Shown here piece after piece: positions 48,016-51,874 of a DNA stretch of 64,000 nucleotides. The notes beneath the pieces were generated by a model. That model ran no database searches and was not told where the DNA came from. It was given only the letters and a program-made list of their open reading frames with translations. Location: assembly GCF_012952065.1 (NCBI RefSeq), contig NZ_JABCJJ010000008.1, positions 62,001 to 126,000 on the forward strand, given 5' to 3'. Within the stretch, counting starts at the first letter, position 1. Each line of letters begins with the position of its first letter. This DNA comes from Cellulomonas fimi (GTDB lineage: Bacteria > Actinomycetota > Actinomycetes > Actinomycetales > Cellulomonadaceae). The position numbers and the translations under genes are program-made.

Positions 48016-48237
48016 TCAGCCGAACCTCCGCGCGCCGATCGAAGGAGGAACGCGCATCGGCCGGAGCAGCGGATCGAGGCTGGTGCGCCGGATGCGGACG
48101 AGGCGCGTGCCGACCTTGACGGCGTCCAGGTCGCCGGTCGCGATGAGCTTGCGGATGAAGCGCTCGGTGACGTGCAGCTCGTCGGCGGCTTGGGTCACCG
48201 TGAGAAGCGCGGATCGGTTGGTGTCGGTGGTGGACAT
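48016..48237 (-). CDS. Excisionase/MerR-like helix-turn-helix protein, 73 aa
   Basis: LLTVTQAADELHVTERFIRKLIATGDLDAVKVGTRLVRIRRTSLDPLL is a canonical excisionase-family (HTH_17) fold. A GAGAGGAA ribosome site precedes ATG 48237. It follows the relaxase fragment on the same strand and lies upstream of nothing obviously regulated; together with the integrase it is likely the Xis of the decayed element. Confidence 0.85.
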   Translation of the reverse strand: MSTTDTNRSALLTVTQAADELHVTERFIRKLIATGDLDAVKVGTRLVRIRRTSLDPLLRPMRVPPSIGARRFG

Positions 48238-49442
48238 GGTGTTCCTCTCTCGACGGGGTCGCGGCCACGGCTCATGGCGACGTAGAGGTCCTCGCGGCCC
48301 ATGCCGGGTGCGGCGATGGTGTGGGTCTGGTCGACGGTGATGCCTTGGCTGCGTGCGGTGGTCGTGGCGTAGCCGAGCTCGACGTGCTCGGCGACGTAGG
48401 CGGCGGGGAGCAAGATCGAGGCGTCGGCCGATCGGTGTGCCGGGTCGGCCGGCCGAGCGCGCAGTGATCCGTCGGTGTGGATGGCGGTGATGTCCCACAG
48501 GTCGCCGTTGCGCACGAAGCCGGTGACGGTGGTGAGGCGGCGGTGGTTGCGTCGAGTGACGATCCGATCACCCACGCCGGCCATGAGTCCGTCGTGCAGC
48601 GTGACCCCGTCGGGGGTGACGGTGCCGGAGAGGACACCGTCGGCGTGGGCACGGGCGTTGAGGTCTCGGACGGTGCGGTTGTCGACGGCTTGCAGGACGG
48701 CGGTGTGTCCGGTCTCGCGGGCAGTGAGGACGGCGTCGAGGGCGGCGTCGAGCATGGCGTCGTGGCTGCCCGCGGTGAAGGCGCCGTGGGCGGTGTAGGT
48801 GTCCAGGGCGCGGGGATGGCCGCGCCGGAGCTCGAGGCTGGCACGGGCTTCCCACGGGCGGGTGAACCGCCACAGGCTGGTCAGCTCGGCGGTGGGGCCA
48901 CGGCGGGCGAGCATCGCGAACGCGTCTCCGGCGTCCACTGACCCGCGCTGAAGGTGGTCTCCGACGAGCAGCACCTTGGCTCGCGCCTGGCTGGCGTGCT
49001 GGACGAGGGCGGCCAGCGTGCGGGTGTCGGCAAGGGATGCCTCGTCGACGACGACAAGCTGCCCGGGCGCGAAGGCCCACCGCGCCTGCTCGCTCATCAG
49101 TTCCGCTCGGGCCCGGCGCTCCTGCATCCATCCCGCGCTCGTGGCATTGGCCTCACTCCGCCGCGAGGCCTCGAAGGCGGCGGCGCGTTGACGGGCGCCG
49201 TCGCCGGCGGACTCGTACAACCACTTGGCGGTGGTGTCGCACCGGACGCCGAGGGACTGGCTCAGTGTGTGGGCCGCCGTGGCGGAGGGGGCGAGGCCGA
49301 CGACGCGGCCGATGTTCTGCGACCAGAACGTGGTTAAGGCGGCGAGGGTCGTGGTCTTGCCGGAGCCGGCCGGTCCGACGAGGGCATCGAGTGCATCGAC
49401 ATCACGCGCGTGCCCCGATCCGAGGCGCCCGCTGCGGTTCCG
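48195..49442 (-). pseudogene. MobF relaxase (TrwC/TraA-type) helicase-domain fragment
   Basis: Helicase part of a conjugative relaxase: Walker A ALVGPAGSGKTTTLAAL at about 49345-49390, APSATAAHTLSQ, Walker B VVVDEASLADTRTL, LLVGDHLQ, and the late motif REDLYVAMSRGRD. The N-terminal relaxase domain with the catalytic Tyr is missing, and the 3' end runs out directly after the last motif, in frame into the ribosome-binding region of the xis-like gene. A piece of a conjugative or mobilisable element. Confidence 0.85.
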
Positions 49443-49832
49443 ATGAGTGCCTCTACATACAGGTGTGCGCGAGAACGACGAACATCGGGCTCCAGGGAGA
49501 GAAGAGTTCGATCAACTTTGGTGACGAGGGGGTGCTCGGCGACCGATGACGGGTTGACCGAGGCCCCTTACGGCACGCCGGTGCAAGAGGAGTCCTGCGA
49601 TCATGCGAATCTCTGATTCAGGCGCGGGCCCAGCGGGCTGGGTCCGCCCGGAACCCGCGCATGGGCGGCCCAAGCGGCCTTCGCCGAGGTTCGTGGAGGT
49701 CAGCGCCGCCTGGTGAGCTGACGACTGTATCGACGTGTCCCAGTGCGCGACCACGCGGTGCCCGGGCGATTGTCGGAGCCGGGCTTCCGTCATCCGGCGG
49801 TCAGGCTTGGTAGTCGCGTGACAGCGGTGCCC
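49443..49832. other. Intergenic within the decayed element
   Basis: About 390 bases without a recognisable gene. A -10 (TAGTCT, 49833-49838) at its right end serves the NYN gene. Confidence 0.4.
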
Positions 49833-49844
49833 TAGTCTCTGCCC

Positions 49845-50321
49845 ATGCGAGTCGGTGTCTACGTGGACGGTTTCAACCTGTACTACGGCGGCGTCGGCCT
49901 TGTGGGCGGGCACGGTGTCGCCGGTTGGCGCTGGCTCGACGTACGTGCGCTTGCGACGTCGGTCGTGGCGCGTGACGCCGGCTGGTCCGCGGCCCAGATC
50001 GCGAGAGTGGTCTACTGCACAGCGCGCATCAGCGGACTCGACAATCCGCAGGGCCAGAAGGATCAGGACACCTACCTCCGGGCGCTTCGTACTGCCGGAG
50101 CAGTGGACCACATCGAGTACGGGTATTACGTCTCCCGCGTCGTCAGCGCCCCTCTCGCGACCAAGGACAAGGCCGGCAGACCTCAGCTCGTGACGTCAGG
50201 TTGGCCGGTGATGGTGAAGGACGTGAACGACAACAGCGTTCGCGATGCCCGGTTCATGGTCTCCGTCGCCCGACAGGTGAGACGCAACGTTCACGTCGGT
50301 GCCCTTCTCCTCCCGACCTGA
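49845..50321 (+). pseudogene. NYN (PIN-like) domain protein, 3' part lost or inverted
   Basis: Begins as a normal NYN/LabA-like nuclease: MRVGVYVDGFNLYYGG with the first catalytic Asp, WRWLDVRALA, RVVYCTARI, DQDTYLRALRTAGAVDHIEYGYYVSRV. After FMVSVAR the expected REEKGxDVNVASHL motif (second catalytic Asp) does not follow on this strand; it is instead encoded on the opposite strand at about 50276-50322. The third motif (SNDSDL) is absent. A TAGTCT -10 six bases before the ATG suggests leaderless expression. Likely inactive. Confidence 0.75.
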
Positions 50322-50344
50322 GGCCTGATCAGCCGTCGTCGACT

Positions 50345-51689
50345 GTCCTAGCGCCTCGTTCAGCCGGTCCGCGATCCGCCGCTGGCCCCGTCGTCGGCGT
50401 GCTGGTAGTGCAGAGTCGCCCTGGGGCTCGCGTGCCCGTCTCGCTCCATCAGCTCGGGGGAGCTTGGCGCCGGTGGCGGCGACGACCGTCATCGCGGAGT
50501 GCCGCTGGTCGTGCCACGTCAGGTCGTCGCGGCCGATCGCGTGTCGGGCGCGGGCGAACATGACCGAGCGACTACCGGGGGAGAGCGGCGTGCCGTTGAC
50601 GGTGCCGAAGACGAGCGCATTCTTGCTCGACCCGGTGAACCGCGCCATGTGCTCGGTGAGCGCGGTGACGGCCACGGCCGGCAGCGCGACCGTGCGGCGG
50701 CCGGCCACGGTCTTGGTCGAAGAGAACCGATGGACACTGGCGCCAGCCCGACTCAGCGAATGCTCGACGCGGATCGTCCCGGCGGTCAGGTCGACGTGGC
50801 GGCGCTGCAGTGCGAACAGCTCGCCGGCACGGAGCCCGCTGCAGAACGCGACGATGACGGCAACGCGATACCGCTCGGGCATCGCATGGGCGAGGGCCCA
50901 GATCTCCTCCGACGTGGCGACCCTGCGTTCGGTGCGGTCTCGGCTGTCGCGCTGGCTCGCTTTCTTGACCGTGCAGGGGTTGGTCTGAATCAGACCATCC
51001 GCGACCGCCTGCGCCATCCCGGTGTGCAACAGCCGGTACGCCTGCGCCGCCTCCGTCCTTCCGGCGTTGCGGCCCCGTCGACCATCGGCGTCCGCGACGC
51101 CTTCGGTCGCAGCCTCCCATGCCTCGCGGACGGCCACAGGAATCCGCCCCGTCGCCGCCAGAGGCGTCCCGATCTCGGCCGCCCAGCGGCGTATCGCCGC
51201 GTTCACGCGACGCGGATGCGCCTGTGCCCGCTCCCAGCGCTCGGTCGCCCGCCGGACCGACTCGGCCAGCACGGCGCCGTCCCACTCGCGCACGTCCGCC
51301 GGCGTGACGGAGCCGAGCGTCTGGGCGCCGGGCTGGACGGTCCGCTCTCGGCCGCCCGCGAGCGCCAGCGGCAGCGGCGCGTCGATCCAGACCTCGAGCA
51401 GCCGCGAATACAGCGCCCGCGTGCTGTCCGCCATCACCCCGCGCGACGCGATCCAGTCCCGGAAGTAGTCCCCGACCAGCTGCTCACCGCGGCGAGGGTC
51501 GTGCCACAGCGCTCGAGCCATCCGTGACGTCTCGTGAGCGAGTGCCTGGTCGGCCTCCGTCTTGGTCCGGAAGGTCCCGAGCGACCGCAGCGCGCCGTCC
51601 GGTCCGGTGTAGCGGGCCTGCCAGCGGCCCGAGGAGAGCCGGCGGATCGCTCCGCTGGCACGGCGGTGGGGAGTTCGTCCAGCGTTCAC
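50345..51689 (-). pseudogene. Tyrosine-recombinase integrase adjacent to tRNA-Gly, frameshifted near the catalytic Tyr
   Basis: From GTG 51689 (GGAGGA upstream): arm-binding N-terminus (RWQARYTGPDGALRSLGTFRTKTEAD), SAM-like core-binding domain, then catalytic Arg in CSGLRAGELFAL and TWHDQRHSAMT. After TGAKLP the frame breaks at a run of five C (plus-strand G run 50456-50460); the adjacent frame holds the missing ELMERDGHASPRATLHYQHADD with the catalytic Tyr. A second shift near 50385 returns to the first frame (RRIADRLNEALG). Either dead or misread. It lies directly 3' of tRNA-Gly, as expected for an integrase whose att site is the tRNA end. Confidence 0.88.
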
Positions 51690-51800
51690 GGCAGGTCCTC
51701 CGCGGCATCTCTCATGGCACGTTATGGCACGAGCCACCTGCAACGAGGGTCCTACGGGGGTCTGACACGGACGTCGCAGGCGCCTGACCTGCGAAAACAC

Positions 51801-51874
51801 TGGAGCGGGTGACGGGAATCGAACCCGCGCTATCAGCTTGGGAAGCTGAAGTTCTGCCACTGAACTACACCCGC
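51801..51874 (-). tRNA. tRNA-Gly (anticodon CCC)
   Basis: GCGGGTGTAGTTCAGTGGCA begins the gene at 51874; acceptor GCGGGTG pairs with CACCCGC, the anticodon loop TTCCCAA gives CCC, the T-arm is GCGGGTTCGATTCCCG, and CCA is encoded at 51801-51803. The 3' half is the likely attB of the neighbouring integrase. Confidence 0.97.

Follow-up and report, generated by a model that had tools for sequence, protein, structure and literature searches.

The locus examined here raises the question of how a conserved protein motif came to lie on the wrong strand, immediately past the point at which the sense reading of its gene breaks off. The gene is a member of the HEC-09/NYN (PIN-like) nuclease family and is located in a 64,000-nucleotide stretch of Cellulomonas fimi DNA (the window, which throughout denotes this whole stretch). 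A motif on the wrong strand is enough to spot a precise local inversion from one genome, and the features that bear on this reading are collected in the table below.

The plus-strand ORF (49845..50321) was found to encode 158 residues that start with MRVGVYVDGFNLYYGG and end with FMVSVARQVRRNVHVGALLLPT. When aligned to a profile built from 11 intact homologues, this ORF scored 228.5 bits over profile positions 1-146. The N-terminal motif VDGFNLYYG and the first half of the NYN domain were present, and the family pattern was kept on the plus strand as far as codon 143. By homologue alignment as well as by the profile match, the plus-strand gene was thus normal up to FMVSVAR, as had been claimed in an earlier note on this DNA; beyond FMVSVAR the ORF reads QVRRNVHVGALLLPT and then stops. 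The 18 best-covered NYN homologues, nearly all from Actinomycetota, were 46-61% identical to the plus-strand ORF. Residues 2-98 of the window fragment matched PADLOC HEC-09 at 4.7e-15, and its sense part was 52-64% identical to the intact HEC-09-like members compared, which match HEC-09 at 4e-24 to 5e-28 and Pfam NYN weakly. By domain search, no Pfam NYN match was obtained for the window protein; of three intact homologues, two exceed the Pfam cut-off and one falls short of it. Compared to the intact HEC-09-like members, the window copy ends after residue 143, has the next Asp motif inverted and is missing SNDSDL.

The middle acidic motif of the family, REEKG(S/T)DVNVA, was detected for the window NYN gene on the minus strand only, with none in sense. 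Scored by a PSSM derived from the 18 homologues (window excluded), the minus-strand 14-mer REEKGTDVNVASHL reached +59.2 bits. The second best of the 127,918 six-frame 14-mers in the window scored -3.1 bits with the same PSSM, the maximum over 20 first-order Markov-random windows was +0.8 bits, and the plus-strand reading at the motif site scored -63.7 bits. In the profile of the 11 intact homologues, positions 140-160 aligned to the minus-strand ORF and positions 1-146 to the plus-strand ORF. Nothing is lost at the joint between the sense and inverted parts: the sense part ends with residue 143, and the inverted piece, a whole number of codons in length, opens with the next family residue. The inverted segment is single-copy in the genome. 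Since the two NYN pieces fit the family order with one of them reversed, and since the antisense motif lies far above chance, the arrangement is not due to chance. A segment of the NYN gene is inverted, and the prediction that the motif would be encoded exactly on the minus strand is borne out by these scores; the span of about 50276-50322 given for it was right as to the strand but not as to the exact coordinates, which are 50274-50315.

Comparison within the family was based on an alignment set of 18 full-length NYN homologues (242-255 aa). All 18 have an F(M/I)(V/A)S stretch that is followed within a few residues by EEK(G/A)(S/T)DVNVA in sense (with QEK in one), and they continue with (V/I)SND(S/G)DL and a conserved C-terminus; the window plus strand has neither of these two motifs. 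Because every aligned homologue carries the sense motif right after the same point, the plus-strand end of the window gene is not a family variant. Homologues sharing this end, named beforehand as the finding that would speak against an inversion, numbered 0 of the 18, and the inversion reading stands. In a wider set of 163 loci outside the own genome, which partly overlap one another and do not give independent counts, the motif was found at 102 and was antisense at none. At 95 of the 102 motif loci it followed the first NYN motif downstream within a single open frame; for the other 7 the first-motif pattern was not found upstream, and the motif shared the strand of the NYN match. Of the loci that lacked the motif, 61 in all, most were integrase loci, distant relatives or fragments. 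Searches with NYN gave no match in phages or among solved structures, no more than distant relatives in viral contigs, and 29 records of plasmid relatives; a 26-base stretch of the inverted sequence was absent from the viral contigs searched.

Features of the rearranged NYN gene and of the surrounding element in the window, in order of position.
Feature	Coordinates	Strand	Remarks
HTH_17 excisionase-like gene of the element	48016..48237	-	start codon chosen by comparison with L169
Truncated relaxase/helicase (TraA/TrwC type) gene, reduced to its helicase part	48195..49420	-	L169 homologue is 984 aa with N-terminal TrwC domain
Sense part of the NYN gene, residues 1-143 (YVDGFNLYYGG ... FMVSVAR)	49845..50273	+	open, no frameshift; profile match
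CAGGT, left arm of the 5-bp inverted repeat at the edges of the inverted segment	50274..50278	+	
Inverted segment encoding REEKGTDVNVASHL (next 14 NYN family residues)	50274..50315	-	42 bp; PSSM, homologue alignment, profile
ACCTG, right arm of the same 5-bp inverted repeat	50316..50320	+	
Integrase 3' tail (...GQSTTADQASG), running into the inverted NYN segment with its own stop lost	50316..50353	-	relatives stop shortly after RLDEAL-like end
Tyrosine recombinase pseudogene; stretch with presumed catalytic Tyr out of frame	50320..51710	-	two opposite one-base indels
tRNA-Gly(CCC), target site of the element (attL side)	51801..51874	-	

The last ~85 NYN codons, including SNDSDL, are absent from the genome. 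A C-terminal query taken from a homologue (L003) found only a 20-residue antisense piece in the genome, and neither a second NYN copy nor the missing 3' part was found elsewhere in it (NYN copy number of 1). An NYN match that extended to profile position 205 across three stop codons was rejected as a forced alignment, because the profile of 11 homologues stops at 146 and the DNA beyond the inverted piece is that of the integrase. With the 3' part absent and the segment joined directly to integrase DNA, a deletion was therefore part of the event or came earlier. The earlier note had proposed a local inversion or template switch of ~45 bp, and this is still the best reading, but inversion alone is insufficient and a deletion is needed as well. 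Likewise, when the segment is reverse-complemented, which had been put forward as a test, the motif is restored but is then followed by a stop within a few codons or by foreign sequence, never by the family remainder. The further claim that the inversion had removed two catalytic Asp residues has to be corrected: inversion removes one conserved Asp (that of G-T-D-V-N), and the Asp residues of SNDSDL were lost by the deletion.

Three conserved active-site aspartates are described for a characterized NYN nuclease (PMC11346440). Mapped onto the window by motif order and not by structure, the first Asp motif (VDGFN) is kept, the second (GTDVN) is antisense only and the third (SNDSDL) is missing. 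Judged by this motif order, the window NYN fragment should be inactive as a nuclease; by its sequence it is a dead fragment with only the first of the conserved acidic motifs of the family.

The segment was also said to lie next to the 3' end of an integrase gene, and it does abut the integrase, but the latter is a decayed pseudogene whose stop codon is lost. DNA similarity of the window integrase to the related elements L169 and L168 (see below) ends at 50354 and 50347, respectively. The 10 closest family integrases (60-71% identity) stop shortly after the RLDEAL-like end, and none of the 10 has such a tail. As the relatives end without the tail and the similarity stops at 50354/50347, the window integrase has lost its own end; its ORF now runs through the inverted piece and antisense NYN to 50196. 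Compared to L084/L085, one extra and one missing base at 50354-50500 (minus strand) put ~27 codons out of frame, after which the frame is restored. The ..LHYQHA.. stretch, with its Tyr that we take to be the catalytic Tyr of tyrosine recombinases, is in frame in 10 of 10 close relatives and out of frame in the window. The integrase DNA gave no plasmid match. Besides Phage_integrase, an Lsr2 DNA-binding domain model was found at residues 170-204 of the integrase ORF (50199-51719, minus strand).

An integrase beside the 3' end of a tRNA, a relaxase and an HTH gene are the components of an element in the window. An intact element was found at the same dcd/tRNA-Gly site in L169 (genome G003, same genus), dcd being the name that we gave to the neighbor gene from its sequence; from a tyrosine integrase it continues through 2.4 kb of other DNA to a TrwC relaxase/helicase of 984 aa, an HTH_17 gene and attR. 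This element spans 8567-17229 of L169, and its attR of 60 bp is 93% identical to the window tRNA end. The same order was found in L168 (genome G110, same family), where a Fic gene occupies the slot that separates integrase and relaxase, and no attR was seen within the stretch of L168 examined. The window element is like those of L169 and L168 in having tRNA-Gly(CCC), a tyrosine integrase, a TrwC-type relaxase/helicase and HTH_17 in the same order, and like that of L169 also in dcd. By contrast, its integrase is frameshifted, its relaxase is truncated, attR is missing, and NYN occupies the cargo slot that holds Fic in L168. A genome search for attR gave no further copy of the tRNA 3' end (the next best was 81% identical over about 47 bases). 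The element has decayed, the NYN gene within it has lost its 3' part, and what is left of that gene is fused to the integrase; it is a remnant of an integrative and probably mobilizable element. From its position, NYN appears to be cargo in a variable slot between integrase and relaxase, and a second deletion junction probably lies near 49400. The DNA at 49392-49844, between the truncated relaxase and NYN, has no clear relative among the loci compared. None of the NYN-bearing family genomes listed (own genome excluded) was among the 12 genomes with the best integrase matches, and a search of 221 family and 396 order genomes yielded no close relative of the NYN-bearing element. G110, the genome to which L168 belongs, has another two integrase copies near each other (contig C2:88263-92575), both with internal stops.

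In our judgment the best explanation of the locus, and a likely one, is a deletion whose junction holds a short templated inversion brought about by a local replication template switch, and we infer the mechanism to have been one such switch. According to this scheme, NYN would have been carried as cargo between the integrase and relaxase of an element at tRNA-Gly(CCC) that was decaying. The last ~85 NYN codons, together with whatever separated NYN from the integrase 3' end, would have been deleted, and 42 bp of NYN, beginning exactly at the break, would have been written in reverse at the deletion junction. To this end the nascent strand would have halted after codon 143, switched to the opposite strand ~42 bp further downstream to copy back from there, and then resumed either at integrase DNA (one complex event) or at the ACCTG of an existing NYN-integrase deletion product. 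The pre-event order ...TCTC-ACCTG-AGGCC... would already be a deletion product, unless one event did both; that a single replication event made both the NYN 3' deletion and the 42-bp inverted copy seems to us possible but somewhat doubtful. The outcome would be a dead NYN fragment and an integrase ORF with a foreign tail. A reverse-complement copy of adjacent DNA is present at the junction. No close relative with the pre-event sequence was found, and the pre-event state is reconstructed from distant homologues and not from a parent strain.

Rearrangements of the FoSTeS/MMBIR type include deletions with templated or inverted insertions at the junction, and the window locus resembles this class in that a short piece of local DNA lies inverted where the deletion was joined. 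Mutation by short template switches is well established and has been given a four-point model (PMC7954356). The locus shares with such short-range mutations (PMC7954356, PMC8604942) the substitution of a stretch by its reverse complement and edges marked by a short inverted repeat. In the spacer inversions reported for yeast, arms of >9 bp are needed and only 2-5 bp are inverted (PMC8604942); by contrast, 42 bp are inverted here, the repeat is of 5 bp and the far edge joins directly onto a deletion. The shortness of the repeat and the longer arms needed in yeast count against a template switch.

The 5-bp repeat at the edges of the segment fits a template switch, because a return point overlapping the copied segment predicts such a repeat; a comparable edge repeat at the same spacing occurs at 173 of 63,940 window positions. 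The last NYN bases may survive in their original sense orientation as the right-arm ACCTG. The present-day DNA was found to have no unusual hairpin at the site (z -0.03), and a hairpin in the present DNA was rejected as trigger based on this lack of a fold signal. A 34-nt inverted repeat, 74% complementary, was also observed (50196-50229 / 50288-50321), resting largely on the 10-bp repeat GACGTGAACG. It was rejected as the cause of the inversion and is read instead as its product, because GACGTGAACG would have been a direct repeat within NYN before the inversion.

The main rival to a template switch is break-and-rejoin, in which a double-strand break would have been followed by excision of the region and religation of a 42-bp fragment in reverse by Ku/LigD end joining. 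Ku is encoded in the genome, so this rival has to be taken seriously; the junction is compact with no base lost at the left edge, and by eye the switch points show little homology for priming. Simple flipping, however, would not predict the 5-bp inverted repeat at the edges, and the keeping of one short fragment exactly beside the break is less natural than copying. We therefore regard break-and-rejoin as unlikely. Still less probable is that the junction arose from chimeric reads or misassembly. The assembly comprises 83 contigs, but the contig around the window is 128 kb long, the genome is 99.97% complete, and the segment is unique in it, so that there is no repeat to mislead the assembler; in addition, the element in which the junction lies shows decay that is independent of it (i.e., the two integrase indels, the truncated relaxase and the missing attR). 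A programmed inversion, in which flipping of the small segment would switch the NYN nuclease on and off, was rejected as having next to no probability: the whole-codon segment flanked by a short inverted repeat would suit it, but at 5 bp the repeat is short, the decayed integrase is there but no invertase was identified next to the segment, the inverted state occurs in no homologue, and, in what largely refutes it, flipping back reconnects no full gene as the NYN 3' part is missing. A natural antisense overlap, i.e., an integrase C-terminus that merely resembles the motif with which its ORF is in frame, has a negligible chance and is already refuted, the motif being lacking in 10 of 10 close integrases and all 14 residues fitting the NYN family exactly where NYN stops.

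Taken as a deletion with a templated inversion, the rearrangement is a clear example of a known mutational class, and no new biological system is indicated. If a single event was responsible, the locus would be a readable example of a complex template switch that inactivated the cargo of a mobile element in an actinobacterium, and genome scans for motifs lying antisense just past a truncated sense domain could measure how frequent such events are in bacteria. Automatic annotation could call both broken products, the short NYN protein and the odd-tailed integrase, real genes.

With respect to the function of the family, the abbreviation HEC, for Hma-embedded candidate, covers putative anti-phage genes, and antiviral activity has been shown for several of them (PMC12988326). 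HEC-09 is listed in one study among systems correlated with phage susceptibility (PMC12447246), which counts against a simple defence reading. In L167 (6544-10385) an intact, HEC-09-like NYN gene was found directly after a type I restriction R-like gene, and in L161 a SIR2-like gene lies about 1.5 kb from an intact NYN gene; these neighbors hint at a defence context for the NYN family.
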